Positions 21,068 through 64,000 of a DNA stretch of 64,000 nt are shown here, in pieces. Location: the NCBI GenBank assembly GCA_947462335.1, contig OX381720.1:63757946-63821945 (forward strand), in the 5' to 3' direction. The notes under the pieces were generated by a model that was not told where the DNA came from, ran no database searches, and saw only the letters and a program-made list of their open reading frames with translations. Source of the DNA: Harmothoe impar (Eukaryota > Annelida > Polychaeta > Phyllodocida > Polynoidae). Both the position numbers and the translations under genes were made by a program. Every line of letters begins with the position of its first letter. Positions within the stretch are counted from its first letter, which is position 1.

Positions 21068-22231
21068 ATGTCAGGTCTGAGGGCCTGTAAAACATGCCTG
21101 CATAGACACAAGCCACCTACTGGCAAGGCCTGTGCTATGTCAGCAATGACTGAAGAGGAATTAGCAGCTCTAGGCCTGGAGAAAGTGGAGCCTGTACCAG
21201 GTGGCCAGCAGCCAGGTGGCAGCCAGGAGGAGGCCTATACTACACCCCAAGGGAGAGTCACCAGGCACACAGTGAAGGTGTCACAGTCTGCAGGTGCCCT
21301 AGGCAGAGACCAGTATGGCTCTCTATTCGGCCTTAGCGAATAGGACGACGAGGACTACCAGGAGTCTGAGGAGGACGACATCTCAGTGTCTGGGCTAAGG
21401 GACTTGGTGGAGGACCAGCAACAGGAGTTAACCAATGTGAGACAGGACATAGCCCAGTTGTCAGCCTCTGTCCAGGGGCTGAACACTGCCGTGAGCACGG
21501 GTTTCAAACGGCTGGGAGTATTCAAGAACCGACGACCACACCCGAGCCCTGGCCCTGTGTCTGGCCACCCGGTGCCTGGCCTCCCGGTGCCTGGCCTCCC
21601 TATGTCGGACAGCTCCCTGTCGTCTGAGTCGAGCGGTACCAGGCGTCACCGCAGACGACGGAGGAGGGCCAAGCGGGTGGTGAACGTGGATATCACCAGA
21701 TATCTCCCAGATGGCCAGGATAAGCCCAGGAGCTTCGCGCAGCTCAACTCCTGCCTGTGCAGTCTCCTGGAGCGGCATGTGGAGAAGGGCACCGAGGATG
21801 CCCTTAAGCTGCTGTCCCACATGCGGTACTTGTTGGACCGGTCGTCGGAAGTGATCTACGAGCTCAGTTATCTCCTAGAATATGATGCAGCGGTCCGGAG
21901 TCTGGCATCCACTGATGGGATGCAAGTGCTTACTTATGGCATCCAACCCCTGATAAATCGATTCCTCGGACTGGGTTCCCTCAAGACTGGGGGTGGGGGC
22001 GGTAGGGCCCCGCCTACCTCGGGGAAGTCCAAGTGGGCCAAGAAGAAGGCTGCCAGGTCAGGGGGAGGGGATGGAGGAGGTGATGGTTATCCATGCTGGT
22101 ACTACAACTTCAAGTCCTGTGATGGGGCCAGCTGCAAGAAACCCCATGTCTGATACTCCTGCGGATTTGGTGACCACAAGGCCCCCAACTGCCCCAACAT
22201 CGTGAAGCAGGCTCAGAAGCCTGCAGCCTGA
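21068..22231 (+). pseudogene. Gag-like protein of the Ngaro-like element
   Basis: It starts at the ATG at 21068, 26 bp after repeat A1. The order is an N-terminal CxxC...H segment (CKTCLHRHKPP), acidic and Gln-rich linkers, a basic patch (RRHRRRRRRAKR, near 21650), a helical region (FAQLNSCLCSLLERH...), a Gly-rich stretch, and a C-terminal Cys/His cluster (CWYYNFKSC...CKKPH) followed by a CCHC-type zinc knuckle (CGFGDHKAPNC). Two in-frame stops interrupt one reading frame: TAG at 21341-21343 and TGA at 22151-22153, the latter where the first Cys of the knuckle should be. It probably packages the element's RNA in intact relatives. Confidence 0.75.
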
Positions 22232-22426
22232 CTCCCAGAGTCAGCCCCAGCACCTCCAGTAGCAGCCCAGGGAGGATCAGCTGGTGAGTCTTGCTACACT
22301 CTACAAAGCAGGAAGCAGAGAAAAACAGAGGACCAGCAGGGCGCAGAGCCCCAGTGTAACCCTCCACATTCCACACATTGTTCGTCACGAAGAGTTCGGC
22401 GGCCGCGGGAGCAAAAGCTTCCGTCT

Positions 22427-25087: not shown

Positions 25088-25930
25088 GTTCTGCGCTCGC
25101 TACGACCTGTCACCTATACCATGTGACTCAAAAACTTTGTGCCTCTATATCACGCATATGTGCCGGAAGTTCAAATATTCTTCCACCATGCAGTATATCA
25201 GTGCGGTAGTATATCTGCAGAAGCTGCATGGCCTTGCCCCAGTATCGACCAAGGACTTTTCCGTGTCTCGCACCATGGCGGGTGCGCGGAGATCGTTTGG
25301 TGATACAGTCAAACAAGCTGTGCCTTTGTCTCCGAGGGATTTGTCTAGGATGTATAATTTGCTAGACATGTCTTTGTCTCGCAATCTGTGCTGGTGGACG
25401 GCGGCCATTATGGCCTTCAGAGGACTGTTGAGGATGGCCCATGTGACGGTTAGTGACCAGGCCATCCGGGTGTCTGACGTCACCTTCAAACCCTGGGGCG
25501 TCCTGCTGAGGTTGAGCAGAACCAAGACTATACAGTACGGGGAGAGATCATTGGAAATCCCCTTCAGCTATGCCAAAGACTCGATATTTTGTGTAGCTAC
25601 GTGAAGCATCTCATAGTAAGTCTTCATCTTCATTCGTCTGACTATTTGTTCCAGTATGGGACCGGCAATAGTCGCACACCGCAGACCTACGGTGTCTTTT
25701 CCGCACGACTGAAAAGTCTCAGCAGTCGTGTGGGCCTCAAGGATATTTCCAGTCATTCTCTGCGGAGAGGCGGGGCCTCCTTCCTATTCTCTATCGGTTT
25801 CACCCTGGTGGAGATCAAATCCAGGGGAGACTGGAGGTCCCTCGCTGTGTTATTGTATCTGACAGACACTCTGGAGAGGAAGGTCTCCAAGGATAAAACT
25901 GTCCTTGACTTTCTAGCAGTTTCTAGATAA
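24957..25930 (+). pseudogene. Tyrosine recombinase of the Ngaro-like element
   Basis: It overlaps the RNase H end in a different frame. The N-terminal SAM-like DNA-binding part (RKSQWKHFYEFCARYDL, SSTMQYISAVVYLQ) leads to the catalytic domain: MAFRGLLRMAHV with the first Arg, then HSLRRGGASF (H-x-x-R), GDWRS and LLYLTDTL with the nucleophile Tyr region. The frame changes near 25585-25604, at a run of T residues, splitting the protein into 24957-25604 and 25589-25930. In the family this enzyme joins a circular DNA copy to the target without a target duplication. Confidence 0.85.
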
Positions 25931-49307: not shown

Positions 49308-49737
49308 AGTAGTATAGTATGTATCGGAACGGGACTATAGTTAAGTACTGTTTATTACTCAATCGACATGCAGCCAATCAGAGGCCTCCATTTGGTCACG
49401 TGACCGGAAGTGACCTACTTAGGGGATTAGTGGTGCATTCTGGGTAACCCTGCAGCCAATCAGAGGCCACCATTTGGTCACGTGACCGGAAGTGACCTAC
49501 TTAGGGGATTAGTGGTGCATTCTGGGTAACCTACTGACCTACTTAGGGGACCGGAAGTGACGTCATATGACCTCATTGAGGATCACGTGACCGGAAGTGA
49601 CCTGATTGATCACGTGAGCGGAAGAAGAAGTTTTTTGTTTAGGAAGTGAGGGTCTTTAGGATCACGTGACTGGAAGCGACGTCGTCACATGAGTGAAGCT
49701 TTAAGAGACTGCGCGACTTACTAGTAAAAGAAGACGT
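49308..49737 (+). repeat. Left terminal region (TIR) of the outer Polinton
   Basis: The first 100 bp or so match the inner element's TIR, then the sequences diverge. A 78-bp unit beginning CAGCCAATCAGAGGCC is present twice in tandem (from about 49372 and 49451). The region carries repeated CCAAT, GTCACGTGAC, ACCGGAAGTGAC and one GTGACGTCAT. The inner TIR boundary cannot be set because the right TIR is not in the window. Confidence 0.75.
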
Positions 49738-49837
49738 ATGAAAATAAAAACACAACAATATTTTTTTTTATTTATTTATTTTTCAATCTTGATAAACACT
49801 CTATTTTTGAAAAGATGCACACGCTTATTATTTTTTT

Positions 49838-51919
49838 TCATATCTCTAAAGGACTCGTTGTCACACCGTCAGAATGCACGCGACGCTTATAATACAAGTA
49901 GCGCACGCCGTCTTTCTCTATGGTGTAGGTGACCATTTTGTTTCGCACCACTTTGAAGTTTCTATTTACAGCAATGAGAGTTTTTCGTTGGCGAAGAACA
50001 TCCAAGAAGTCGTCTGGTTCCTGAGGGTTTTGTTTCTTCTGTACGCCTTTTGCACTCCATTTTTTGGATTTTCTTTCACCGGTGTCGCTGACTCGATCGT
50101 AGCAAATGTAAGTCTTAGGGTTGAGACTTAGGATCCCGTCACCTTCCCACTCCGCTTTCATAAGCCCCGAAGTTCTCAGATCGTGAAGGTACCGTCTCTC
50201 ACAACATCCGCCGGGCGGCGGACACCATTCTCGCACTCTTTCCGTTTTTGTCTTCACGAAAAGCTCTAAGTGATCGTCGCACACCGCTGTCGGAAGCCAC
50301 TTTCGTTTCTCTCTGAAGTACGTCTCTCTCAGGCGAGGTTTGACTAGGTCATCCAACGTGTCACCGCTGAGAGCCATGTAAAGACTGTCGGTGTCCATTT
50401 GACAAAGGGCATAATCGCGCCGATCGACGAATCTATCCAAGAAGTCGTATGTGAACTCTAACACTTTCAACTTTGCGTACTGGTATACCATGAACCCTAT
50501 TTGAATAGGGAGGTTGTTCTTGACTGTTTTCGGTTGTAGTTCGACTTCAAACAGATCGGAACTCAACTCGGACCCCTTTTTGAAGCGCCACGAATTGGCC
50601 AATAGTTCGAACTTCCGACTGTCAGTGTATCTCACCGCCGTGTGTTTTTCTTTGTTGCAGATTGTTTTACCGTACGTAGCGTTTCCCATTAACTTGTAAC
50701 AGTCTGACAGAATTTTCTCGTTCTCGTTCACGTCGCCACGTCTTCGCGCCGCCGTTACTTCGTCCGCGAAACCGGCAAAGGAGCGTTTAGGTAGGTATTC
50801 TACCACCAGCTGTACTTTGGTGACTATCAAACCGTGCTCTAAATACCACTTGAGAAGCGGCGTTCCCAAGAGAATATTTTTTCCGTGGTAACTCCCTATC
50901 AGACATCTCTGAGGCGTGTTCAACAGCTTTTCTTCCTGCGCAAAGTCTGACATGTGAGGTCCTATGTCCGATTTTGAAACGGTCGCGTTCTTGAAAACGG
51001 GGGTCATTTCTTCGAAGTAGTCTCGTAGGTGAGGCGGCGTAGTGATGTCCACTTGAACTAAACCGAACATTTTCTCCTCTTTCACAGCGGAAAGGATGTC
51101 GCTCTCGCTCATCGCGTTTCGAGACACTTTCAAAGCGTCAACCTTCCAGCGTTGTTGGGAGGCCTTGACCCGCTCATCTCGACGCTTCATCTCTCGCACT
51201 CCCACACGACGACCAGCTTGTGACCTAGCGCTTTCAAGTAAGCGCTTACTCTGGTCGTTCTGTCGCGTCTCTCCTCTCTCAGTGAAGCGCACTGATATCG
51301 GTGCGACGGTATGCACTCGTGAGCGTGGAACCAACACCCGTGAAACTGGAAAACCGTATTAGAGGCCGCGTGAAACCCGTCCACGCGAATTCTCCGACAG
51401 CCTACAACCATCTCGCCGCCGTTCAAAGAGTGGCGCAGTTTCACGTCGCGGTCGTGCTCTACGAAGCGTAACCACTCCAAAGCGCTGTGAGAGTTTCTTT
51501 GCCTAATTTCGGGCTTGAACTCGGTCTCGGGCCGTCTCACCGCGTAATAGCCCGTGCAGTGCGCTTCGCTCATGCAGCGCAAGTACAGAGAGTTAGCGTC
51601 TAGTCCTAGGATGTGTTGGCACCCGCTTCTTCGCCGTACTTGTGCTCCCTTATCCGCGTGGTGCCCTTCTCATGAAATCTATGGAAGATGATGGAAGGAC
51701 CGCCGACTAGATTTTCTTTGATCAGAGCGTGGAGGACGGCGTCGAACTGGGGGAACGTTGTGAACGCGTCTTCTAGGTTTTGGAAGAGGAACCGTAAAGT
51801 CAAACCGGCGAGAGAAACTCCGTCTTTCAACATGTCAGTGCCGCGATCTTGGAAAAATTTAGCGTGATTTTTCAGAGCTTCTATGAAAGGTTTGACGTCT
51901 TTGTTGTTGTAGTGGATCA
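49838..51919 (-). pseudogene. Polinton DNA polymerase B, C-terminal part
   Basis: Family-B protein-primed polymerase, used to copy the element's linear DNA. Three minus-strand segments in three frames follow one another: 51606-51920, a segment through 51187-51582, and one to the stop at 49838. Breaks lie near 51620 and 51190. Visible motifs are LDANSLYL (motif A, just past the first break), CYKLMGNATYGKT (motif B) and CQMDTDSLYMAL (motif C, with the catalytic Asp pair). The C-terminus ends 100 bp inside the outer TIR region. The N-terminal exonuclease half is at 62754-64000, displaced by the inner Polinton. With two frame breaks, a stop and the insertion, the gene is dead. Confidence 0.9.
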
Positions 51920-51925
51920 AGTAGT
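51920..51925 (+). repeat. Target-site duplication AGTAGT, left copy (inner Polinton)
   Basis: AGTAGT here and at 62748-62753 directly flank the inner element. Polintons characteristically duplicate 6 bp. The polymerase frame is continuous across the site when one copy is counted. The duplicated hexamer is the same as the first six bases of the TIR. Confidence 0.9.
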
Positions 51926-52318
51926 AGTAGTATAGTATGTATCGGAACGGGACTATAGTTAACTACTGTTTATTACTCAATCGATATGCAGCCAATCAGA
52001 GGCCGCCATTTGGTCACGTGACCCGTTGCCATGGTAACGTGACCTACTTAGGGCTCTCAGCCAATCAGAAGCCAGCATTCTGGGTGACCTACTGACCTAC
52101 TTAGAAGCTCTCAGCCAATCAGAGGCCGGCATTCTGGTAACCATGGTAACGTGACCTTCTTACGTCACGTGACCTACTTAGGCTCAGCCAATCAGAAGCC
52201 GGCATTCTGGTAACTAGGGTAACGTGACCTACTTAGGGTTTTGTTTGTAAACAACACCACGTTGCTCTCTTGTTTGTAAACAACACCACGTGACACGTGA
52301 CTGTTTGTAAACAAACAA
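51926..52318 (+). repeat. Left terminal inverted repeat of the inner Polinton
   Basis: It matches the inverse of 62356-62747 with about six substitutions and one 1-bp indel by eye. It holds four CCAATCAGA motifs (CCAAT at 51992, 52061, 52115 and 52188), CACGTG at 52015, 52166, 52287 and 52294, and RFX-type palindromes GTTGCCATGGTAAC (52025) and GTAACCATGGTAAC (52137). Confidence 0.9.
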
Positions 52319-52433
52319 CTTATATAAAGAAAAAAAAAAAAACAAGTTCCATGTTATGTTAAAATTATATTTTCAAAAAAAAGCACATCTGTTACAGCGT
52401 CTATGTGTAACTACGCGCGTTCTCATTCAAACA

Positions 52434-52976
52434 CTATAACACTATCATACCGTAGCAGCAGCAGGTAGGACTGAAAGAAAAGCAAGCGCACGAGCAGAAG
52501 CGACGACACCATTTGCACCATCCGACCATAACATCAGCAGCATCGGCAGCATCGGCAGCAGCATCGGCAGCAGCGGCAGCAGCCTCGGCAGCAGCGGTAG
52601 CAGCAGTAGCAGCAGCTGTAGCAGCAGTAGCGTGAGCATTAGCAACAACAGCAGCAGCGACAGTAGCAAGGGCGGCAGAGCGGGCACTAGCAGCGTTATC
52701 AGCGGCGACATCGGCAGCCGCAACAGCATCAGCAGCAGCAGCGTCGGCATCGGTGGCATGAGTAGCTGCATCGGCGGCAGCAACAGCAGCAGTCACAGCC
52801 GCAGCGGCAACAACAACAACGTCATCACAACCAGCGTCACTAACAGCCGCAGTAAATGCAGCAGTAGCACGCTGAGCAGCACTAGCAGCAGCAGTAGCAG
52901 AGGCTACAGCATCAGCTTCACATTCGCGCGCCGCTTCGTCATTCCGCTTCATGTCACGGTAGCAACTTTCCATCAT
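52434..52976 (-). CDS. Alanine-rich protein with Cys/aromatic tail, about 180 aa
   Basis: The start chosen is the ATG at 52976, because a TATA-like box at 53086-53094 would place the transcription start near 53060. An upstream frame without ATG adds a Leu run translated from a microsatellite. After a short charged N-terminus (MMESCYRDMKRNDEAAREC) come about 120 residues composed mainly of Ala with Asp, Thr and Val, encoded by imperfect GCT/GCC repeats, then WCKWCRRFCSCACF and a hydrophobic end. No family is recognised. The Cys-rich tail could suit membrane association. It may be a repeat expansion rather than a functional gene. Confidence 0.35.
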   Translation of the reverse strand: MMESCYRDMKRNDEAARECEADAVASATAAASAAQRATAAFTAAVSDAGCDDVVVVAAAAVTAAVAAADAATHATDADAAAADAVAAADVAADNAASARSAALATVAAAVVANAHATAATAAATAATAAAEAAAAAADAAADAADAADVMVGWCKWCRRFCSCACFSFSPTCCCYGMIVL

Positions 52977-53003
52977 GGGGATCTGCAAATTGAGGCGCGG
53001 TGC

Positions 53004-53045
<42 letters not shown>

Positions 53046-53085
53046 CGTGAACGATGACGACGATGCCGAATACGGTTTCACTCCC

Positions 53086-53094
53086 CCTTATATA
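53086..53094 (-). promoter_or_regulatory. TATA-like box upstream of the Ala-rich gene
   Basis: TATATAAGG on the minus strand, about 110 bp upstream of the ATG at 52976. Confidence 0.4.
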
Positions 53095-53595
53095 CCCTTA
53101 CTCCCCCCTTTTTTTCAAGCCACCGGCCAGCTGCCCCCTCACGGCAGGTCTTTAGATCAGCCTTAAGTCGCTTACTACGCGGCTCATCATCCCTCTAATC
53201 GCATTTTCCAGCCGCCGGCCGGCTGACTGCTGACGACAGGAGAGGGTGATTTGTTTTTCTTTAGATTTAAGCCGCTTACCACACGCGCACCCTCTAGTCA
53301 CAGACAGAGTGACAGAAAGGGAGGGGGTCGCTTTGTTCACGCTACCTGTAGTTGTTTTTCTATACACACGCTGAGCCCATGACCCGCTAATCCTTTATAC
53401 AGGTAACACGCGTTCAACTAATTACTCTATTGTATGACAGTCGGTACACGGATTTAATTTTAAACCACCTTCCCATCTGGATCCATGTCTTGCGGGGTGG
53501 AAGGATCCAGCTGAAAAGCGTGATTAGGGCTTTTGTTTCTCTTATGATAGCAGCAGGTCAGCATGCGACAGCTGAAAATGTCAGACTCGCCGCTC
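53095..53595. other. Intergenic, no gene recognised
   Basis: Two related stretches (53145-53230 and 53255-53310) share AGTCGCTTAC-, GCCGGC- and TTTAGAT-type phrases. This may be the divergent promoter region between the Ala-rich gene and the rightward genes. Confidence 0.35.
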
Positions 53596-53596
53596 C

Positions 53597-53604
53597 TATA
53601 AAAG
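53597..53604 (+). promoter_or_regulatory. TATA box for the rightward small gene
   Basis: TATAAAAG within GCTCCTATAAAAGACTGAG. It lies about 230 bp upstream of the ATG at 53832. Confidence 0.5.
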
Positions 53605-53831
53605 ACTGAGATGCGTCTCTCTTTCCACACACCCTTCTACCATCGCCGCCGACACCGCCACCGCCCATCGCCAGCCGACCGCCGCCACCGCCTGCAGTCA
53701 CCGTCATCACGCCGGCAGGGAATTTCGAGCTGAGTCTGCTTATTGCTTTTTTTTTTTTTTTTTTCTTTGAGCTTTTTGTTTTTTAAAATTTTTATTTTCA
53801 CTCAGTCTTTTTTGTTTCGGAGGAAAGAAAT

Positions 53832-54128
53832 ATGGCGCTGCAGAGGGCGCGAGTTTCTAAAAGACGGTCGCGCGAACAAAGGGCCCTCCTCAACTGCCCG
53901 GCTATTTTTTTATCTCAAAGGAGAGAGCGTCACGTAGTTGAGGTTCACGCATCGCTTGAAGCGTACCGAATTCTCGAGAAATGCAAAGCTGAGCGCCATC
54001 GTCGTTATACAAGAGCGGAAAAGGAAAACGTAGCGACATGGCCGAGAGCCGTCTTCTCAGAACAGTATTTACTCTACCATTGCATAACAGCCGCTCTCAG
54101 CGCCTCTCACTCGTTGGGCGTTTCATGA
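53832..54128 (+). CDS. Small basic Polinton protein of unknown function, 98 aa
   Basis: ATG in the context AATATGG. The first 35 residues are strongly basic (RARVSKRRSREQR), and the middle is helical and charged (LEAYRILEKCKAERHRRYTRAEKEN). No family is recognised. Support for it being real: it is preceded by a clear TATA box and followed by a second TATA box for the next frame. It lies in the gene block left of the ATPase, where Polintons carry variable genes. A nucleic acid-binding or virion-associated role is only a guess. Confidence 0.45.
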   Translation: MALQRARVSKRRSREQRALLNCPAIFLSQRRERHVVEVHASLEAYRILEKCKAERHRRYTRAEKENVATWPRAVFSEQYLLYHCITAALSASHSLGVS

Positions 54129-54168
54129 AAAGAAAGAGCGCTGCTACTCTCCTCACCCTGCCTCCTCT

Positions 54169-54175
54169 TATAAAG
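54169..54175 (+). promoter_or_regulatory. TATA box upstream of the Cys-rich small gene
   Basis: TATAAAG in CCTCTTATAAAGTGAG, only 15-21 bp before the ATG at 54190. If it is used, transcription could start at or after that ATG, which makes the start codon uncertain. Confidence 0.4.
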
Positions 54176-54189
54176 TGAGAATAAGTGCT

Positions 54190-54483
54190 ATGAAACGATT
54201 CAACAAGCCGATCGGTTTCTTGGGAGCGACTGCAGCTCCCACTCGGTGGGCGCGCGTTGTGGCCGACGTGAACACGGTCTCTAAACGTTTTGACGTCGTC
54301 ACTTGTTATCCCGCATATTGCAACGCAGCCGAATTGAAGAAGATAGGGACGCACTATTTTAAACCATTCGCTCCAATATGTATTTGTCACCGCCGCGCTC
54401 ACACGCCTTATTGCTTTTTCGACACGATCGTGTCACAACACAGAAATAGAAAAAAAAGCGGCAAAGCGACAAGCTTTGCCTAA
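54190..54483 (+). CDS. Small Cys-containing Polinton protein of unknown function, 97 aa
   Basis: The start is the first ATG after the TATA box. The protein begins MKRFNKPIGFLGATAAPT and contains several Cys and His residues towards the end (ICICHRRAHTPYCFF), followed by a basic tail. No family is recognised. The frame ends just before an A-rich stretch with AATAAA-like signals (54489-54510), consistent with a 3' end. An overlapping minus-strand frame (54097-54402) is considered a shadow. Confidence 0.4.
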   Translation: MKRFNKPIGFLGATAAPTRWARVVADVNTVSKRFDVVTCYPAYCNAAELKKIGTHYFKPFAPICICHRRAHTPYCFFDTIVSQHRNRKKSGKATSFA

Positions 54484-54838
54484 ATGATCAAAAAAATAAA
54501 AAATAAAAAAAATTAATCTCCTCCTCCTCCTCCTCCTCCTCCTCCTCCTCCTCCTCCTCCTCCTCCTCCTCCTCCTCTCCCTCTTCTTTTTTTAAAAAAA
54601 ATAAATATTTGTATCAGACTCCTCTGGAGTCTGATACAAAACATTTATGACTATTGAGTGAAAATAGAATTTTATCGCAAAAAAGAAAAAGAAAAAAAAA
54701 GACACTTCTGCCGCCGCTACTGTGACACCGGCCGGAATCAATAAAAAGGTCGGCGGACTTTTCTCCACAACCATTCACTACCGACCGTTCGAGTGAGAAA
54801 CACAGCAGACAGTCAGACACACAACCGCTCTCTCACGC
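54484..54838. other. Intergenic: CTC microsatellite, perfect hairpin, ATPase leader
   Basis: A (CTC)n run spans 54518-54577. A perfect 15-bp stem with a 3-base loop spans 54608-54640 (TATCAGACTCC TCT GGAGTCTGATA core), flanked by A/T-rich sequence, and may act at a 3' end. CAATAAAAAGG at 54736 is a weak TATA-like candidate for the ATPase. Confidence 0.55.
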
Positions 54839-55579
54839 GTGCTGAAAAAAAAAAAAAAAAAAAAATGTCGAGCAGTAGAAGCAAACTTTTCACAGAAATT
54901 CATTTCTCGACTACAAGGACCCTTTAGTTGTATCATTAGCGGTCCGTCGGGTTGTGGAAAATCGCGCTTGGTGGATCAATTTCTGAGCAACGTGAACAAT
55001 TTGGTCACGCCGCCGGTGGAAAAGACTTTTTACCATTACGGCGAGTGGCAACCTCTGTTTGAAAAAATGCAAAATCAGTACGGTGTGGAATTCAGAGAAG
55101 GTCTTCCTAGCAAAGAGACTTCAGCGGGAGACGTGGAAGTAGCAGAAGACGCCTTACGACCCCACACTCTACTGATATTGGACGATCTGATGAGCAGTTC
55201 CAATCAGCAAGTGGTAGCCGACATCTTTACTAAATACTCGCATCACTGGAACGTGAGCGTCATATACATCACTCAGAACCTATTCCAGAAATCACCCGAC
55301 TTTCGAACTATGAGTCTGAACGCTCACTACATGATCGTTTTCAAGAACCCGCGCGACATGGGGCAAATAGCTAGTCTGTCTCGCCAGGTGTTTCCGTCCA
55401 ACGCGGCGGCCCTCTCTAGTATATTTACCCATGAACTCAAGCGACCTCACTCATACCTCCTTCTGGACTTCAAGCAGTCAACACCTGACGATCTGAGAAT
55501 ACGCTCCTCTTTGACGTCCATACACTCTCAGCTAGTGTTCGTACCGCTAGACAAAAAAAAGAACAAGAGAAAGCAGTAG
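54839..55579 (+). CDS. Polinton DNA-packaging ATPase (FtsK/HerA-like)
   Basis: It powers DNA packaging into the capsid in this superfamily. Walker A is ISGPSGCGKSRLV (about residues 33-45), Walker B is TLLILDDLM (about 109-117), and the sensor-like motif is VIYITQNLF. Length and motif order fit Polinton ATPases. The start is unclear: the frame has no ATG near the beginning. A run of 21 A residues (54845-54865) leads straight into an ATG at 54865, but that ATG is in another frame and hits a stop after about 20 codons. Either the start is non-ATG (CTG 54842), a frame break separates the ATG from the body, or the homopolymer length is misread. Confidence 0.9.
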   Translation: MLKKKKKKKCRAVEANFSQKFISRLQGPFSCIISGPSGCGKSRLVDQFLSNVNNLVTPPVEKTFYHYGEWQPLFEKMQNQYGVEFREGLPSKETSAGDVEVAEDALRPHTLLILDDLMSSSNQQVVADIFTKYSHHWNVSVIYITQNLFQKSPDFRTMSLNAHYMIVFKNPRDMGQIASLSRQVFPSNAAALSSIFTHELKRPHSYLLLDFKQSTPDDLRIRSSLTSIHSQLVFVPLDKKKNKRKQ

Positions 55580-55585
55580 CAAAAA

Positions 55586-55786
55586 ATGTCTTCTCATCTA
55601 CTCGAAAGACACTTTGGTACTCTCAAGCACTTAGCTAAGTGCTCGCCAAAGGACTGCTCGCATCTAATAGACTCTGGAAGCGACGATCTGATCGCAGCGT
55701 TGAGTGAGATCTGTCACAATTTACTGGTAGGGAACATCCCGCTCAGCGACAAACCGAGATGCCGGCCGTCATCCGAGATGCTTTAG
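55586..55786 (+). pseudogene. Small conserved Polinton protein, truncated 5' copy
   Basis: It starts 7 bp after the ATPase stop (MSSHLLERHFGTLKHLAKC). Residues up to PLSDK match the first part of a small protein commonly found beside the ATPase in Polintons (pattern: LLxxL...SP...I..C..NLL.GN.PL). At 55755 the sequence switches to an inserted integrase fragment, and the frame ends after about ten foreign residues. The remaining C-terminal part is found at 56097-56373 after a 113-bp duplicated segment. Confidence 0.75.
55642..55754 (+). repeat. 113-bp direct repeat, first copy
   Basis: Identical to 56097-56209. The pair brackets the integrase-derived insert, like a very long target duplication. 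Confidence 0.9.
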
Positions 55787-56096
55787 TGTCGCTGGACGCC
55801 TACACTAAACATAAACCCATTCGGAGAAAATTCGCAAGGAACAAGACTATAACCGGCGCAATCGATCAGCAGTGGCAGATAGATCTGATGGACATGCAAG
55901 CTTTGGCGTCTCACAACGACCGCTTCCGGTACGTGGTGACGGCGATCGACGTTTTCTCTAGGTACGCGTGGGCCGTTCCCATTAAATCCAAGAGCGGCGC
56001 TGATGTCACCGAGGCCTTCCGAGAGATGACAGGCACTGGCGAGAGACGACCGCGCACTGTTCAGACAGACAAGGGGAAAGAGTTTTTGAACAAGAT

Positions 56097-56209
56097 CTCG
56101 CCAAAGGACTGCTCGCATCTAATAGACTCTGGAAGCGACGATCTGATCGCAGCGTTGAGTGAGATCTGTCACAATTTACTGGTAGGGAACATCCCGCTCA
56201 GCGACAAAC
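56097..56209 (+). repeat. 113-bp direct repeat, second copy
   Basis: Identical to 55642-55754. It restores the sequence of the small conserved gene downstream of the insert. Confidence 0.9.
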
Positions 56210-56348
56210 AACTGGACAAGCTTCGAGAATCGGCTGACGTGTTGAGGGAGGTCGGCAAAAAATCTACGCCCATCAAAAAAAAGAGACGCGTCTTGGTACA
56301 AGAGGGAGGTTTCCTCATTCCGGCTCTCATAGGGATGGCCTTACCGCT

Positions 56349-56355
56349 TATAAAG
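56349..56355 (+). promoter_or_regulatory. TATA box for the gene starting at 56457
   Basis: TATAAAG in CCGCTTATAAAGAGC, inside the end of the preceding gene. A start about 30 bp downstream places the ATG at 56457, not 56370, as first in the transcript. Confidence 0.5.
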
Positions 56356-56456
56356 AGCATTCTCCGTATATGAGACACCTCATTCGACACCTACTCGCCG
56401 ACAGCACCACCACCACCACTACCGCCACCACCAGCGTCATTGCCACCGTCGTCCCC

Positions 56457-57554
56457 ATGACGGACTCAGAGCAGCAACAACACTACAAACGCTTAGCGCT
56501 CGTGGATCCTGAGACGCTCTACAAATCATCACGAGCAGGTCTACTTCATCATGTGCCCGCTGCTGCTGCTACTACTAGCGCTGCTACTACTGCAGTCGCT
56601 GCTGCTAGTACTTCTACTGCTCCAAACCTTCCTCCTCTTCCTGATGAGCGCACTGAAAAGAACGAGAGTTCCGCTCCTGCCACCGCCGCCCGCCTACCTG
56701 CCGACATGGCCTATTACCACAAGCAGGCAGAACAGTCCCTTCATCCCGACGCGGCCTTGCACCAGGTGCTACAGTTTATCTACAGGGACTTGGATTTAGT
56801 GTTGAACGACCCCACTTTGGAATCGCGCGAGAAAATGTTGAAATACCGAAGGTTGTTGAATAGATTGCAATTTTTTCTCGCGAATCCCCACAACAGCAAC
56901 ATCTCTTCGTCCTACTCTTCTTCGCCCCCGGCTCACCTCCGTCAGTCTGCTGAAGAGGCCAGCGCGTCCCTACTCGAGCGGTTGGCGAACCAAGTTCCCA
57001 AGAGGAATCGCACCCGGACCGTGGCGCTGTACAAACAATTGGAGAAATCCGGTGTGATCAAGTGGAACGAGGACGGTGCGGTGCGCGAGATGTCGGGTCG
57101 GAGAATACCACCTGAGCATCGCATCAACATAGTGGACTTACTGAACGACGCTGCCAGGTTCAGGAAGACGGCGCCCAGACCGGCGGGCTACTCGCCGTTC
57201 ACGAAAGCGCTGCGCGAAGCAGTTCCCACAGACTCCTTGATCGGAAACCATCTGTATAAAGCGAGCGGACCTGGCCGAAGTTTGGACACACGGCTTGCTG
57301 ACAGAGGTCGGAAACGACCGAGCTTCGACTCGGAAGAAGGAGAAGCAGCAGCAGCAGCAGCAGCAGTAGCAGCAGCAGACTCTTCTCTCCAGGTGGACGA
57401 TCAATCCTCTGACGACGAGGAGGACGACAGTGAACTTTTCCAAACTCCGACTTCCTATAGGAGCGTGGCGAGTAAGAAAAGGAAAGGGCGCAACCGCCTA
57501 GCGGCGAGGTCGTCGTTCACGCCCTCAACAGGCCCACCATGGGCAAACCAGTGA
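56457..57554 (+). CDS. Conserved Polinton protein of unknown function, about 365 aa
   Basis: The frame opens at an ATG at 56370, but the TATA box at 56349 and the family-like opening (KRLALVDPETL) favour the ATG at 56457. After an Ala/Thr-rich linker come two helical blocks (HQVLQFIYRDLDLVLNDPTL, EKMLKYRRLLNRLQFFL) and a C-terminal region (YKQLEKSGVIKWNEDGAVRE, NIVDLLNDAARFRK, PAGYSPFTKALREA, SLIGNHLY) that I recognise as recurrent in Polinton and related elements. The tail is acidic and Ala-rich, then basic. It is a probable virion or packaging-associated protein with no established activity. The last 16 bp overlap the integrase start. Confidence 0.7.
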   Translation: MTDSEQQQHYKRLALVDPETLYKSSRAGLLHHVPAAAATTSAATTAVAAASTSTAPNLPPLPDERTEKNESSAPATAARLPADMAYYHKQAEQSLHPDAALHQVLQFIYRDLDLVLNDPTLESREKMLKYRRLLNRLQFFLANPHNSNISSSYSSSPPAHLRQSAEEASASLLERLANQVPKRNRTRTVALYKQLEKSGVIKWNEDGAVREMSGRRIPPEHRINIVDLLNDAARFRKTAPRPAGYSPFTKALREAVPTDSLIGNHLYKASGPGRSLDTRLADRGRKRPSFDSEEGEAAAAAAAVAAADSSLQVDDQSSDDEEDDSELFQTPTSYRSVASKKRKGRNRLAARSSFTPSTGPPWANQ

Positions 57555-58663
57555 AGAGACTGACCAAGAAGGAAAAAGAAAAGAAGCGCGTAGTAGCTAG
57601 ATATACCGACGTCAAAGCGCCCTCCAGTTTCACTAGCGTGACTAAACTCCAGAAACATCATTTTCGCCACCTGAACCCGGCCGTCATCCGAGATGCTTTA
57701 GTGTCGCTGGACACCTACACTAAACATAAACCCATTCGGAGAAAATTCGCATGGAACAAGACTATAACCGGCGCAATCGATCAGCAGTGGCAGATAGATC
57801 TGATGGACATGCAAGCTTTGGCGTCTCACAACGACCGCTTCCGGTACGTGGTGACGGCGATCGACGTTTTCTCTAGGTACGCGTGGGCCGTTCCCATTAA
57901 ATCCAAGAGCGGCGCTGATGTCACCGAGGCCTTCCGAGAGATGACAGGCACTGGCGAGAGACGACCGCGCACTGTTCAGACAGACAAGGGGAAAGAGTTT
58001 TTGAACAAGATCTTTCAAGATCACTTGAAGAGCGAGGGCATAGAGTTCTTCACTGGCGAGAACGACGACATCAAAGCTAGTCTAGTGGAGCGCTTGAACC
58101 GCAGTCTGAAGGAGAAGCTGTGGCGTTATTTCACACACAAGCGCACGTATCGCTACGTAGACGTACTGCACCATGTAGTGTCTTCTTACAATCGCACTCA
58201 CCACAAGACGTTGAAAATGGCGCCGGCTCAAGTCAGCTCGGAAAACAGCGAAACAGTTTTCTACCGACAAGATCTCCCAACTAACAAACAAATCAACGAA
58301 ATATGGAAAAAGAAGAAAAAAACAAAGACGTCCGCCATCGACGTCATCGCTCCGGGTGACAGAGTGAGGATGTTGAGAACTAAAGGCGCCTTCGACAAAG
58401 GGTACGAGGGAAACTGGCGCGAGGAAGTGGTCGACGTTGCTAAGACGTTGGGAAGCAGAGGGTTCGAGCTGAAAGACGACAAGGGCGAGGAGATAAAAGG
58501 CGTCTTCTACCCGGAAGAGGTTCAGAAGGTGTACAAGAGTCGTTACGACAACAACTACCTGATAGACGAGGTGTTGCGCCGCAAGACCGTCGACGGTAAA
58601 GAGTTAGCTTTCGTACGTTGGTTAGGTTACGACGACAAGTTCAACGAGTGGATCCCCGACTCT
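57539..58663 (+). CDS. Polinton retroviral-like integrase with chromodomain
   Basis: The ATG sits in CCCACCATGGG, a strong initiation context. Catalytic residues of the DDE core are visible: D87 (QIDLMDM), D149 (QTDKGKEF) and E184 (SLVERLNR), about 35 residues apart as in DD35E. A central SH3-like region (APGDRVRMLRTKGAFDKGYE) and a C-terminal chromodomain (YLIDEVLRR...FVRWLGYDDKFNEWIPDS) follow. It inserts the linear element DNA and makes 6-bp duplications. The frame does not stop after the chromodomain but continues without interruption into the minor capsid protein at residue 376. Confidence 0.95.
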
Positions 58664-59742
58664 ATGGAGTATTATCCTGACAACAGCTTGACGTCTTTCC
58701 GAACTCACTTCGACTCGCCGCTCCTTCTGCCCGAAGCGTACGAAGCGGCTCTGACTGAGATCATCCTCCCTACAGAATGGACTAACGTGCACAACGACGA
58801 CTTGATCATCGTTGTTCCTCTGCGCACCAAGGGTTCGCTAGAGGAGGCGATCCAGGTTTTAAAAGAAACTAAATTCGCCGAAGGAAAAAAACCACAGGTA
58901 GACTGGAGGGGGATGAAAAACGCGAACGGTCTGAGCAAGCTAACGTTCAGCTCAAAATTCCCGCTGAGCTGGAAGGAAGCGAGCTATGTAACGGTGGAAG
59001 AGATATCAGACACGTCGGAAGAGCAGCAATTGAAACCAGAAACAAAAAGGTTCAAGAGAGAGGTCGACTTGAGACAGACGAATGCCGTATACAAGCAGTT
59101 CTTGTCCCCGGCGGTGAAGAAGAAGGCGATCAGCGATCAAGCAAGACAGATGATCGAAGAGATGGAGAAAGACATGGGAGTGCGCAGTTTCATGCCAAAC
59201 ATATTCGAGATACCTCCTATTTTCACCGGAAGCAAGCACACCCTAATCGAGCGCTTGAGTGAGACGTTGCGAGATGACAGACTAGAGGGCGACAGCTTCT
59301 TGCTCAAACCGATGCGGATCTTATCGTACGACGCCAAGACGAAACGCGTCACCATCAAACCGCCGAGACACTGTGCTGTCCTGCTGAGTCAGCATGCGTT
59401 CTAGGCTTCGGAGAGAAGACGTGTTTCGCGTCGCCGACTACCGGCGCCTACTCGATGGATGTTTTAGACGTGCACTCTGTGTACATATACACCGACATGA
59501 TCCAGGAGAGACGTGTGGGCGACATGCAAGTGCCGCTGTTGCGCTGCGTGGCGGTGGACAGAGGCGGAAAGCGTCGAGGTGGCGTGCAAGCTATCAGTTT
59601 TCCCCATTTGGATTATTTCCCCTTGAAATCCAAGAGGTTTACCGAGGTCGGCATCTATTTAAGAGACCGATCCGGTCATTCCATCCCATTCGGTAGAGGC
59701 GAGGTGACCGTGACACTTCATCTGAGACCTATTGAGCGCTGA
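58664..59742 (+). pseudogene. Minor capsid (penton-like) protein, fused to integrase and frame-broken
   Basis: From MEYYPDNSLTSFRTHF onward the sequence matches the N-terminal region of Polinton minor capsid proteins, but the first dozen or so residues usually ahead of it are absent and the integrase precedes it directly. The frame stops at 59402-59404. In the next frame, from about 59395, the typical C-terminal part follows (VLGFGEKTCF, then VYIYTDMIQERRVGDMQVPL, PLKSKRFTEVGIYLRD and VTLHLRPIER) to a stop at 59742. So the gene is damaged by one frame break near 59393 and by loss of its own start. In intact relatives it forms capsid vertices. Confidence 0.85.
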
Positions 59743-59753
59743 AAGAGAGAAAA

Positions 59754-60179
59754 ATGATGCGTCAACGCGTTCCGTACTTTCCACCCAGGCGCACCGTCGG
59801 CAGAGGGTACAGCGATTACTACAACGCGCAGCTGGGCAACGGCATCAACGTGTACAGCGGGCGCTCTTTCCAGAGCGGGCACGGTTTGGGCGGCGCTCTG
59901 TTAGGTCTGATGCGCTCGGCTACCCCGCTATTGAAGTCGGTGGGAAAAACGCTGCTCCGCGCCGGTGTGGGCGTAGCTAAAGATGTGCTGGCGGGTCGGA
60001 CTTTAAAGAGCAGCGTGAAAGACCGAGGCGCAGGCGCTCTGAAGAGACTGGCGAGTACGGCGTTCTCGGGAGGAAAGACGACTGTCGCGTCTAAGAAAGG
60101 GTCGAAACGTCGCCGGCATTCTCCTCAGACGGGCGGTGGCTCTTGCAAGAGACGTAGAGGGGATGTATTCGACCGGTAA
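59754..60179 (+). CDS. Small Gly/Arg-rich Polinton virion protein (pVI-like)
   Basis: It begins 12 bp after the minor capsid stop. The N-terminus has YFPPRRTVGRGYSDYY, then a Gly-rich turn (GHGLGGALLGLMRS) and an amphipathic segment (PLLKSVGKTLLRAGVGVAKDVLAG) with the recurrent LKSSVKDRGAGALKRLAS phrase, and a strongly basic C-terminus (KKGSKRRRHSP, CKRRRGDVFDR). This order matches the small protein found between the two capsid genes in many Polintons. An amphipathic membrane-active or DNA-contacting role, as for adenovirus pVI or core proteins, is inferred. At 141 aa it looks intact. Confidence 0.75.
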   Translation: MMRQRVPYFPPRRTVGRGYSDYYNAQLGNGINVYSGRSFQSGHGLGGALLGLMRSATPLLKSVGKTLLRAGVGVAKDVLAGRTLKSSVKDRGAGALKRLASTAFSGGKTTVASKKGSKRRRHSPQTGGGSCKRRRGDVFDR

Positions 60180-60196
60180 GCGCCTAGGCGTTCAGG

Positions 60197-60209
60197 TATA
60201 AATAAAAAG
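60197..60209 (+). promoter_or_regulatory. TATA box for the major capsid gene
   Basis: TATAAATAAAAAG, 50 bp before the ATG at 60259. Confidence 0.6.
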
Positions 60210-60258
60210 ACTGGAGGCGGCCGGCGTCAGTCTGTCGGCCGCGTGAAGAGAGAACACA

Positions 60259-61566
60259 ATGGCTTACGTACACGAGAGCAGTAACGAGTGCGCGCTCTCT
60301 GAGCTCGACCTGCACACCGTAGCGCCGACTCAGACTACTATCTTAAAGTCGTCTTTCCTGGGGATAGAAACAAAAAACTCTTTAGAGGATGGAGGTAACA
60401 TAAATTTTACCATCAACAAGTCGCAAGAGTACACAGACCTGAACGAGAATTACCTTCATCTGGAATGTCAAGTGCTGAAAGCGAACGGAGCGGCGATCGA
60501 GGACACCGACGCAGTAGCTCCGGTGAACAACTTGGCTCACTCGCTCTTCAAAGACGTCCAAGTCTCCATCGGCGGTTTCAAAGTGTCTGGCAACACCGAG
60601 ACCTACCCTTACCGAGCTTACTTGGAAGGGTTACTCAACTACAACAAAGACGTGAAGGACGGCGTCATGAGCGCCCAGGGGTGGCATGAAGATACGCCCG
60701 GTCAGTTTGACAGGTTGACTGACGCGAATGCGGGGTACAAAGCGCGCAAGAAGCTAATCTCCAACAAGCGCTTTTCGCTGATGGCGCGACTGCACTTTGA
60801 CCTGGCTCATCAACCGAAGCTCATCGTTGGAGAGACAGAAATCAATCTCACTCTGAAACAGGCGGCGCCCTCTTTCTATCTGATGTGCGCCGCTGACGGA
60901 GGCTACAGCTTGAAGATCTACAAAGCAAAGCTCTACGTGCGACGCGTGTTGGTGGCGGACGCTGTAGCGGAAACGCACGAGAGAGCGGTGATAGAACACG
61001 GACCCTTCGACTACCCGGTGAACAGAGTGGAGGTGACGACGTACGCCATCCCTCAAGGTAACAGAGATCACAGCTACACGCACTCCAACACAGGCCAGCT
61101 TCCCAAGTCGATGATGATTTGCTTCCTTGACCACGACGCCTTCAACGGTAGCTACACCAAGAACCCGTTCGAGATGAAGCATTACGACATCAGCTCGCTT
61201 CAAGTGATAGTGAACGATCAGAAAGTGCCGAACGACGCCTACGTGCCCGACTTTAAGACCAAAGCGGCCGTGAGAGAGTACTTGGCGCTACACACGGAAA
61301 CGGGGATGTACGAGGGCGCGCGCTCCTGCGGTATTTCATACGATCAATTCCTGAACGGTTACACGGTGTTCCCCCTCGACTTAACCCCAGACAGATCGCA
61401 CGACGGGTGTCGCGTGAACCTTATAAGAGCGGGTCAGCTGAGGGTGGAAGTCAGTTTCCGCTCGGCGCTACAAGCGACAACAACGGTGCTACGCTACTTG
61501 GTGTACGACAACGTCGTCGAGCTGACCCGAGATCGACACCCCTTCACCGACTACCACATGAACTGA
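60259..61566 (+). CDS. Polinton major capsid protein (double jelly-roll), 435 aa
   Basis: ATG in ACAATGGCT after a TATA-bearing leader. Family landmarks are the N-terminal SSNECALSELDLHTVAPTQT, INKSQEYTDLNENYLHLECQ, PVNNLAHSLFKDVQVSIGG, ETYPYRAYLEGLLNYNKDVK, a mid-protein HFDLAHQPKLIVGETEINLT, and a C-terminal FPLDLTPDRS...LRVEVSFRSAL...LVYDN. These fit the double jelly-roll capsid family shared with adenoviruses and virophages. The length is slightly short but complete, and no breaks are visible. Together with the ATPase and protease it implies that the ancestor could form virions. Confidence 0.95.
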   Translation: MAYVHESSNECALSELDLHTVAPTQTTILKSSFLGIETKNSLEDGGNINFTINKSQEYTDLNENYLHLECQVLKANGAAIEDTDAVAPVNNLAHSLFKDVQVSIGGFKVSGNTETYPYRAYLEGLLNYNKDVKDGVMSAQGWHEDTPGQFDRLTDANAGYKARKKLISNKRFSLMARLHFDLAHQPKLIVGETEINLTLKQAAPSFYLMCAADGGYSLKIYKAKLYVRRVLVADAVAETHERAVIEHGPFDYPVNRVEVTTYAIPQGNRDHSYTHSNTGQLPKSMMICFLDHDAFNGSYTKNPFEMKHYDISSLQVIVNDQKVPNDAYVPDFKTKAAVREYLALHTETGMYEGARSCGISYDQFLNGYTVFPLDLTPDRSHDGCRVNLIRAGQLRVEVSFRSALQATTTVLRYLVYDNVVELTRDRHPFTDYHMN

Positions 61567-61595
61567 AGACAAGACAGCGGTACTTGGCGTATCGT

Positions 61596-62048
61596 ATGAA
61601 CACGCTTGAAATAAGCAGAGTGTTGAAGGAAAACGTTCACACAAAACATCGTTTCCTGGGCGTTTTCTCTTGTGACACTATTCCGAAGCACCCTATCAAA
61701 GACACTTGTTTCGTGAGCAACACAGATCCGCAACATTTACCAGGTCAGCATTGGGTGGCGTTTTACGTGTCGAGCACGGGTGAAGTGTACTACTTTGATT
61801 CCTTCGGCTTACCGCCGCTGAGTGCGGAGTTCTTGTCTTTCGTGGAACGCTCTGCTCCGTTCAAGTGGCAAAGAAACCGCATTCAACTACAAGACACTTC
61901 TGCTGACACCTGTGGACCTCATTGCGTTCATTTCCTAATTGAAGCATGTCGAACAAGAAACCCCAAGAAGTGCGTCATGCGCATGAGCAAAATCCCAAAG
62001 CTGTGCCACCGGGCCGTGAGTCAGAAGCTATCGATGATGCTGTTGTGA
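61596..62048 (+). CDS. Polinton adenain-like cysteine protease, 150 aa
   Basis: The frame is open from 61407, but that part overlaps the capsid gene. The ATG at 61596 gives the family-like start MNTLEISRVLKENVHT and lies 30 bp after the capsid stop. The catalytic His is in GQHWVAFYV, the Asp/Glu-bearing strand in VYYFDSFGLPP, and Cys in TCGPHCVHFL. The length matches adenovirus-type capsid-maturation proteases. It would process virion proteins. No breaks are seen. Confidence 0.93.
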   Translation: MNTLEISRVLKENVHTKHRFLGVFSCDTIPKHPIKDTCFVSNTDPQHLPGQHWVAFYVSSTGEVYYFDSFGLPPLSAEFLSFVERSAPFKWQRNRIQLQDTSADTCGPHCVHFLIEACRTRNPKKCVMRMSKIPKLCHRAVSQKLSMMLL

Positions 62049-62245
62049 CGGGTTGTTGCGATGGCGGCCGTTTCATGGAGGCAAAGATTCTCTGCCTTGC
62101 CGAAATGGTGTTGGATTTATCCAAAGTCGTGCAATGTCTATTGGAGAGAAGTCGTCCGGGGTGTGGTGGTGCGAGTGACGGCGGCGTGAGACTTTGCGGC
62201 CTGTTGAGTTGCTGCAAATCGAAGAAGCAAGCTAAAAAAGCATAA
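61946..62245 (+). CDS. Possible small Cys-containing protein, 99 aa
   Basis: This frame begins at an ATG inside the protease gene (another frame) and runs 200 bp past its stop, ending just before AATAAA signals. The unique part has a helical stretch (EAKILCLAEMVLDLSKVVQC), Gly/Cys-rich sequence and a basic end (CKSKKQAKKA). No family is recognised. The first third overlaps coding sequence, so it could be a chance frame. Confidence 0.3.
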   Translation: MSNKKPQEVRHAHEQNPKAVPPGRESEAIDDAVVTGCCDGGRFMEAKILCLAEMVLDLSKVVQCLLERSRPGCGGASDGGVRLCGLLSCCKSKKQAKKA

Positions 62246-62274
62246 ACTTGTGTGTTTTTTCTGATTGAAATGAA

Positions 62275-62287
62275 AATAAAGAATAAA
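62275..62287 (+). terminator. Polyadenylation signals after the late gene block
   Basis: Two AATAAA hexamers (62275-62280 and 62282-62287) lie about 30 bp after the last plus-strand frame and 70 bp before the right TIR. Confidence 0.6.
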
Positions 62288-62355
62288 ATGAAAAGAAAAG
62301 AAATTATCTTGTTGTGTTTTTATTTCTATATATAAGTTACATAACTTTTTTTTGT

Positions 62356-62747
62356 TTGTTTGTTTACAAACAGTCACGTGTCACGTGGTGTTGTTTACAA
62401 ACAAGAGAGCCACGTGGTGTTGTTTACAAACAAACCCTAAGTAGGTCACGTTACCCTAGTTACCAAAATGCCGGCTTCTGATTGGCTGAGCCTAAGTAGG
62501 TCACGTGACGTAAGTAGGTCACGTTACCATGGTTACCAGAATGCCAGCCTCTGATTGGCTGAGAGCTTCTAAGTAGGTCAGTAGGTCACCCAGAATGCTG
62601 GCTTCTGATTGGCTGAGAGCCCTAAGTAGGTCACGTTACCATGGCAACGGGTCACGTGACCAAATGGAGGCCTCTGATTGGCTGCATGTCGATTGAGTAA
62701 TAAACAGTAGTTAACTATAGTCCCGTTCCGATACATACTATACTACT
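62356..62747 (-). repeat. Right terminal inverted repeat of the inner Polinton
   Basis: Mirror image of 51926-52318 and ends ACTATACTACT at 62747. Carries the same set of CCAAT, CACGTG and GTTACCATGGTTACC-type motifs in inverse orientation. Confidence 0.9.
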
Positions 62748-62753
62748 AGTAGT
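62748..62753 (+). repeat. Target-site duplication AGTAGT, right copy (inner Polinton)
   Basis: Identical to 51920-51925. It is followed directly by outer-element polymerase sequence CTTCCAT. Confidence 0.9.
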
Positions 62754-64000
62754 CTTCCATAGTTTGCATCTTCTCGTCGGATCAAACTTTCTGACATGCG
62801 GCGTAGTCGGATTCGGACATTTTGACGCCCGTCAGCTCGCTGTCGAAAGCCGATCTCGGTGGCAGCGTTCTGTTTGCCAGTTTCCTGGTAGACGTCATCC
62901 ATTCGTAAGGAAAGTGACCTTTCTCTTCGTTCCTGGTGAAAGCTCGCAAATAGGTCGCGTAGTTGTAACCGGGTGCCAAATAGATGACTACGTCCAAGAA
63001 AACCGTGTGCTGTGTGTAAACCGCCAAGTATTGATTGCTTCTCTTTATGACGCTGAATTCTTGGTTTCTTCGGTCTCCGGAGGCGAAGAACGAGTGAAGG
63101 CGTATTTTGATCAGGTTCAAGTCGTAACGCCCCGAGTTGAAGCCCACGACTGGAGCTTGACGGATGTATCTCAGAAGACGCTTCTTCAGTTGAACTAACG
63201 GGTGTCTGGTCTGAGCCGCAGCGAAGCCGCCTGGAGAAGGGGTGAACGTCGCCTCCTCCAGCAGGAGAGCTTCACCTATCGCCGCATCTAACTTCGCTAA
63301 GGTCGGTCGGTAAAGTTCTAGCACAGCTTCCCCGATGACTTTGGCGTTCTCGTTTATGTGATTTAAAACTCGGTCCAACAAGGGGTCGGAATCTGTGTCG
63401 GATTCTCTGACGAAGCAGACGGGCCCCTCCCACCCCGGAAAGTCGGATGCGACGCTAGCCGACAAAGGGACGTGATCCCACAGCAGGGACACGTGTTCCG
63501 TCGACGGTTCTTTGCACGGTCTGAAGAAAGCCTCGAAATCGAAGGCGATCTTGTAAGGGTAGATTCCGGAATGTCCGTCGGGGGGAAAAATGGAGAAGTC
63601 TGCTAGCGCTTCGAAAATCGTTCTCGAATTTTGGTAGATGCCACCTACGTAGCGCAACTTGACTTGTCGGCAAGAGGAAAGCTGGTTCCTGTGTCTCTTC
63701 AGCAAGAACTCGGTGGTGAACGCCGCCTTACACTTGCAACATTCGTATATGCCCGCGTACGCGTTGAAGTCCGTAACGAGAGAGACGTGCAAACCGCCTT
63801 TCGCCGTCAGGTGTAGGTTGACTTTACCTCGGGCGGCCAGAGTTCTGGAAGGCGGTCTGATCAGAGTAACGCGTCTTCTCAACTTCCGCCCCGGCACTTG
63901 ACGCGACGCGGTGTAAACCGCTATTTGTACGTCAAACAAGTTCTCTAACGCGGGTAAGTCGCGGATGTTCAGACCCGGAAAGGATTCAGGTGTGGCAGCG
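62754..64000 (-). pseudogene. Polinton DNA polymerase B, N-terminal part (partial)
   Basis: The minus-strand frame is open from the window edge (64000) to a TGA at 62782-62784; coding similarity continues past this stop to the insertion site at 62753. Visible are the exonuclease motif I (YKIAFDFEAFF) and a motif II-like segment (VGFNSGRYDLNLIKI), plus a Cys/His cluster upstream (CCKCKAAF...LLKRHRNQLSSC) that may bind zinc. The start lies outside the window. Together with 49838-51919 this makes one split polymerase gene of the outer Polinton, inactivated by the stop, the 10.8-kb insertion and two frame breaks. Confidence 0.9.

Follow-up and report, generated by a model that had tools for sequence, protein, structure and literature searches.

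A compact Polinton without a polymerase gene, nested in the polB gene of a related Polinton in Harmothoe impar: a candidate satellite-like lineage

Architecture of the nested elements

The DNA analysed here, referred to as the window, is a 64,000-nucleotide stretch of the genome of the polychaete Harmothoe impar (C20:63757946-63821945). Its right part holds two related Polinton-type elements, one inserted in the other. The inner element is flanked on both sides by pieces of a minus-strand DNA polymerase gene (polB) that belongs to the outer element, and it carries packaging, integrase, capsid and protease genes of its own. The features that define the nesting are as follows, where TIR denotes a terminal inverted repeat.

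49308-49740, plus strand: left terminal region (TIR) of the outer element, holding an 82-bp tandem unit; its terminus is the same in 6 of 6 further polB copies
49838-51337, minus strand: C-terminal part of the outer polB, a 499-residue frame with homologues such as P0039
51187-51582, minus strand: second frame piece of the outer polB
51606-51920, minus strand: piece of the outer polB directly after the target site
51920-51925, no strand: left target-site duplication, AGTAGT
51926-62747: inner element, 10,822 bp, between the two pieces of the minus-strand polB
51926-52318, plus strand: left TIR of the inner element; this terminus is present in 37 of 40 sampled copies
62356-62747, minus strand: right TIR of the inner element
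62748-62753, no strand: right target-site duplication, AGTAGT
62754-64000, minus strand: N-terminal side of the outer polB with the exonuclease region; the open frame continues beyond the window end

The first-pass annotation had described an outer terminus at 49308, a 10,822-bp element with TIRs of about 393 bp and exact AGTAGT duplications, and a minus-strand polB in two parts on either side of it. All of these were found as claimed, and the first bases of the outer terminus are those of the inner TIRs. The inner TIR pair (393 bp) is 98.2% identical. Alignment of the TIRs also bore out the statement that the two elements share their outermost bases, the first 98 nt of the outer terminus having 1 difference from the right inner TIR and 3 from the left. 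The target hexamer is identical to the first six bases of the inner TIR (51920-51931), and other hexamers occur in 17 further copies.

The insertion site lies in the exonuclease part of polB, just before what we take to be its third exonuclease motif. Of the 18 homologues spanning both flanks, 17 have exactly 12 residues between the parts that match the two polB pieces, which by arithmetic corresponds to 36 nt at the target with one hexamer counted. The insertion is thus precise. The polB frame had been described as continuous across the target. It does agree at the target site itself, but elsewhere the gene is interrupted by an in-frame stop (62782-62784) and by two frame changes, near 51,620-51,660 and near 51,190-51,215. 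The length window used in the search for polB homologues excluded full-length polymerases, so that the best identity obtained, 53%, is uninformative on close relatives.

The outer element extends beyond the window, and its far end, with the target duplication expected there, was not found. In the 5.5 kb that were read past the window end there are PC4-like and other frames, and queries with capsid, ATPase, protease and integrase sequences gave no match. The PC4-like gene apparently lies near polB (PF02229, E 1e-5), and a plus-strand frame of the outer element has a weak Death-domain match (E 0.09) that is below the cut-off. A frame similar by eye to the latter also occurs in the stretch around C20:63826242. 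A further element terminus with the same TIR, oriented like that of the outer element, is located at C20:63826242, ~4.3 kb beyond the window, which points to a third related element nested in or adjoining the outer element.

Gene content of the inner element

The genes and other features of the inner element are listed from left to right.

52434-53081, minus strand: Ala-rich open frame; its place is that of polB in the outer element
53233-53576: non-coding stretch whose homologue, in inverted orientation, is intergenic in the part of the outer element outside the window
53832-54483, plus strand: possible small gene, split in the window copy
54839-55579, plus strand: packaging ATPase, Adeno_IVa2-like (PF02456, E 1e-6)
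55642-56209, plus strand: rearrangement of the window copy, a 113-bp direct duplication around a 337-bp integrase fragment
56370-57554, plus strand: open frame of 394 residues, function unassigned
57539-58657, plus strand: retroviral-type integrase (PF00665, rve, E 4e-13) with a weak chromodomain match
58664-59739, plus strand: putative penton gene, so assigned from its position and from motifs; the frame breaks near 59,392-59,404
59754-60179, plus strand: open frame for a small basic protein between penton and major capsid protein
60259-61566, plus strand: major capsid protein (MCP), 435 residues, with a double jelly-roll model
61407-62048, plus strand: adenovirus-type protease (PF00770, E 2e-4; score 21.4 bits, cut-off 21.3)

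An ATPase, an integrase, a protease and both capsid genes had been assigned to the element from the sequence. The first three are recognised by Pfam and the MCP by its fold, but the penton of the window copy is fused to its neighbour and frame-broken. The AlphaFold2 model of the MCP (predicted local distance difference test score, pLDDT, 82.7) is matched by Foldseek to the MCPs of PBCV-1 and mavirus (E ~1e-14), and the fold as modelled is a double jelly-roll. Homologues of this protein from sea urchin, limpet and sea cucumber bear the names F54H12.2-like and major capsid protein, whereas a comparison of the MCP profile with the sequences in the PDB gave no match. The penton model (pLDDT 31.5) is unusable for fold comparison. 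We take the gene at 58664-59739 to be the penton partly from motifs and also from where it lies, one gene ahead of the MCP, an order that is reported for Polintons (PMC4028283). Neither the 394-residue protein nor the small basic protein has a Pfam or PHROG match. Taken together, TIRs of hundreds of base pairs, a 6-bp duplication, an rve integrase, an ATPase, a protease and a double jelly-roll MCP are the hallmarks of a Polinton (Maverick).

A polymerase was looked for with two sets of queries, and the first-pass statement that the inner element has none held. The outer polB pieces match the inner element only at E > 0.2, and the best match of 120 polB homologues (E = 0.005) falls inside a capsid gene and is read as chance. 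Pfam and PHROGs revealed no replication gene among the larger frames of the left region, and no helicase was recognised among the frames tested, the ATPase having only sub-cut-off matches to helicase families. The 5' motif of the possible small gene was located in 35 of 40 copies, 26 of which carry the gene as a single 216-residue frame. This frame has no Pfam match and is under weak constraint, with a ratio of nonsynonymous to synonymous polymorphism (pN/pS) of 0.64-0.89. The Ala-rich minus-strand frame was rejected as a gene: codon position 2, not 3, is the most variable, and pN/pS is 0.85-1.02. The non-coding stretch at 53233-53576 aligns with the intergenic region of the outer element at 74.9% identity over 195 bp (E 8e-27) and 76.7% over 90 bp (E 5e-10).

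The window copy is damaged in several places. Segment 55642-55754 is repeated at 56097-56209 (113 bp), and between the repeats an integrase fragment, 55762-56098 (337 bp), copies 57677-58013 at 99.4% identity and breaks up the small gene after the ATPase. This insertion is absent from 19 of 19 plus-strand copies holding the segment and from the 2 minus-strand copies looked at. Insertion and duplication would most simply be accounted for by a template switch during replication. Further on, an in-frame fusion joins the integrase to the penton at the cost of the last integrase residues, the penton frame breaks at the position listed, and the ATPase frame has no in-frame ATG ahead of Walker A. In relatives the integrase is a separate frame of ~378 residues, and integrase and penton are likewise separate in the database relatives P0159 (99%) and P0167 (95%). 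The longest contig reported for P0159, whose integrase is 99% identical, is 10,510 bp, near the full length of the polymerase-less element. Less its own insertion, the window copy would measure ~10,367 bp by subtraction.

A family of polymerase-less copies

The genome of the window itself (1.51 Gb) was searched with the MCP, and the best 97 of 2,815 loose candidates were scored. All 97 are 99-100% identical and have a 439-residue open frame. Left arms were sampled for 40 of the 97 (20 on the plus and 20 on the minus strand), and right ends for the 20 plus-strand copies only. The left terminus was found in 37 of the 40, as was an ATPase match; the remaining three comprise one copy with an internal rearrangement and two without element sequence at that place. 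With the window polB pieces and 8 homologues as queries, no left arm contains polB at E <= 1e-3 (0/40). Both termini were located in 18 of the 20 plus-strand copies. These copies are 10,374-10,542 bp long, which leaves no room for a polB of ~4.1 kb. Exact 6-bp duplications flank 17 of the 18, and the exception has inverted flanks.

Absence of the polymerase is therefore common to the sampled copies and not an accident of the window copy. The compact capsid-encoding derivative proposed from the window sequence is supported as a family, and carriage of a polymerase by other copies, named beforehand as the finding that would overturn it, was seen in none of the left arms. A 239-residue ATPase frame is present in 25 of 40 other copies, and full-length ungapped frames were recovered from 20 sampled copies for the integrase in 14 and the penton in 16. 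One sampled polymerase-less copy sits ~12 bp inside the end of a related element whose terminal bases are the same.

A second, distant MCP query (P0009) gave 96 scored matches, all at 38-39% identity and all with open frames of 438-439 residues. None of them, by eye, is at any of the 97 places of the first search; they may be more copies of the polymerase-less family or a second capsid-bearing family. Outside this genome, the MCP, the MCP alignment, the integrase alignment and the TIR pattern found no relatives in a viral contig collection, nor did the MCP and integrase in a collection of genome contigs.

Polymerase-bearing elements with the same termini

The interrupted polB piece was used as the query in a corresponding search, in which 86 of 7,980 loose candidates were scored. 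All 86 match, 71 of them at 99-100% identity over query residues 47/48-499. Frames of at least 1,364 residues were counted by eye in 49 of these 71 close matches, the other 22 being shorter. In a further 14 copies, at 91-98% identity, the alignment to the window piece begins at residue 2, whereas in the 71 it does not begin before residue 47 or 48. The 14 suggest, by their alignment, that the second frame change of the window polB is common to a subgroup of copies. A search of the genome with PF03175 also returned other polB families, many with frames of ~1,177-1,189 or 1,400-1,500 residues, representing several polymerase lineages.

The outer terminus of the window was found at the left ends of all six long-frame polB copies read. 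Over 98 nt, these six termini have 1-3 mismatches to the right inner terminus and 3-5 to the left. In the reverse comparison, 36 polymerase-less left termini were aligned with one polB-copy terminus (a 37th, altered in its first bases, was left out) and have 0 (11 copies), 1 (2), 2 (1), 3 (21) or 4 (1) mismatches. Beyond the 98 nt, the TIRs of the two families align in pieces, mostly at 72-79% identity, with short pieces higher. Conserved ends beside diverged neighbours are the pattern expected from recognition by one polymerase and integrase, although gene conversion could also be the source of the conserved ends. Among the 97 listed MCP copies, that of the window is the only one with any of the 86 listed polB copies no more than 25 kb away.

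Selection and age

The ratio pN/pS was computed for the integrase, ATPase, penton and left-region frames. It is 0.255 for the integrase (13 distinct ungapped frames, pairwise), 0.232 for the ATPase core (25 distinct frames) and 0.18 for the 239-residue ATPase frames (19). ATPase and integrase are under purifying selection between copies. The left region, with a mean pairwise identity of 97.4%, was seen solely in its polB-less form, so that much of this selection probably acted after the loss of polB. The median TIR identity within a copy is 98.98%, with a mean mismatch of 0.92% (n = 18), against the 98.2% of the window copy.

Mode of amplification

The inner element probably represents a non-autonomous, capsid-encoding Polinton lineage that is amplified in trans by the polymerase of a related family. 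PolB of the polB-bearing family described above, or of a close relative of it, would recognise the common ends and, by protein priming, copy the polymerase-less element. The integrase encoded by that element would insert the copy, in this case into the polB of a helper-family member that is damaged, and its own capsid module would package it, making it a satellite-like polintovirus. Dependence on a helper is plausible from the common termini. A satellite in this sense has capsid genes of its own, and MCP frames are present in 97 of 97 scored copies and full-length ungapped penton frames in 16 of 20, of which 3 have a stop. The broader proposal of a two-family system, in which polymerase-free Polintons are satellites of polymerase-bearing ones or both are segments of one bipartite polintovirus, is tentative and in our view rather doubtful. 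If it is true, insertion into the polB of a helper, as seen here, would let the satellite harm that helper.

The same data may be read as cut-and-paste transposition, in which the polB-less family moves with its integrase as transposase, host replication raises the copy number, and the capsid genes are passengers. The integrase is indeed kept and constrained, the duplications are of 6 bp, and the Gypsy-integrase-like transposase that is conserved in Polintons is described also for the cut-and-paste elements TDD-4 and TDD-5 (PMC2836005). However, passengers need neither a constraint on the ATPase, which is as strong as that on the integrase, nor kept MCP frames, which all 97 scored best matches have, and this explanation is unlikely. 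Improbable to a greater degree is a bipartite arrangement, in which the polB-bearing family is without some structural genes and one element gives the polymerase while the other gives the capsid. It would fit the abundance of both families, their long open frames and common termini, their lack of linkage in the listed copies bar the nesting in the window, and the 5.5 kb beyond the window that is without match to the structural and integrase queries. Nonetheless, that 5.5 kb is only a part of the polB-bearing element, the terminus of another element appears in it, and most published Polintons are reported to have capsid genes, with a full-length or split MCP in 46 + 13 of 72 (PMC4028283).

Two further explanations concern the window copy itself. 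A mis-assembly joining two unrelated repeats would have precedents in the false stops and false consensus contigs reported for endogenous virus assemblies (PMC10120064), but it is very hard to reconcile with the precise duplication and the codon count at the target, or with the flank-specific duplications that 17 of 18 other copies have of their own. Hardly credible at all is local decay, by which an ordinary Polinton would have lost polB after inserting here: the window copy does have several lesions absent from sampled copies, but the left arm is the same in 37 of 40 other copies, and polB is in none of the 40. Loss of polB in the window copy alone is ruled out by the sampled copies, unless these are unrepresentative.

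Replication in trans by a related polymerase has several observations to contend with. The penton is under weak constraint (pN/pS 0.653, 14 distinct frames), and stops interrupt 3 of the 14 ungapped integrase frames as well as 3 of the 16 penton frames. The sampled copies were drawn from the best MCP matches, so that the sample is biased towards intact ones. The MCP and polB lists cover a small fraction of the loose candidates, which number in the thousands and among which there may be polB-bearing members of the same lineage, and one copy from the second MCP query (C19:840273) lies, by eye, ~11 kb from a listed polB. The 394- and 216-residue proteins, being without a family match, could hide a replication function, and the selection on ATPase and integrase could be partly inherited from polB-bearing ancestors.

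A high-copy polymerase-less lineage under selection on its packaging and integration genes would mean that a capsid module is worth keeping without a replicase. It would also make a viral role of animal Polintons testable, selection for packaging being hard to explain without particles. The two families form a natural pair for locating the terminal bases recognised by PolB, because only about the outermost 98 nt are unchanged between them.

Relation to known systems

Polintons are called self-synthesising because they have a polymerase of their own. They are defined by PolB, an rve integrase and TIRs (PMC12220804), and their described features include long TIRs, an integrase, an ATPase, a protease, a double jelly-roll MCP and a penton one gene away from it (PMC4028283), with target duplications of 6 bp (PMC8097293). 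Apart from PolB, which is missing from its 40 sampled left arms, and from length, 10.4-10.5 kb in 18 copies compared with 15-20 kb for Polintons, the inner family is like them in these features, its penton being a putative one. Some Polintons are reported to have lost their capsid genes (PMC4028283). An amplified capsid-bearing Polinton family without polymerase is the reverse of this documented loss. No report of such a family in an animal was recognised in searches of the Creative Commons-licensed literature of PubMed Central.

Endogenous viruses of protists are similarly described as capsid-bearing, integrated and without a detectable DNA polymerase gene (PMC10120064). Unlike them, the inner family is of Polinton type with integrase and protease, is present in near-identical copies, and shares its genome with a candidate helper whose ends are the same. 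The Tlr elements of Tetrahymena, once proposed to be non-autonomous Polinton derivatives, are described as having capsid and integrase genes without pPolB (PMC4028283). They differ in having a superfamily 1 helicase and no protease, while no helicase was recognised among the tested frames of the inner family. Polinton-like viruses (PLVs) have been proposed to use the integrase of a resident Polinton in trans (PMC4642659), and retrotransposons are described as nested inside PLVs and virophages (PMC12220804, PMC8547959).

The inner family would act as a virophage does if it makes its own capsid and needs another virus to replicate. The helpers of virophages are giant viruses, whereas the candidate helper here is a relative with the same ends.

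Other elements in the window

Two further candidate elements are located to the left of the nested pair. The open frames at 5855-8517 resemble the endonuclease and reverse transcriptase of a non-LTR (long terminal repeat) retrotransposon, and those at 21344-25930 are presumably of a DIRS/Ngaro-type retrotransposon with a tyrosine recombinase.

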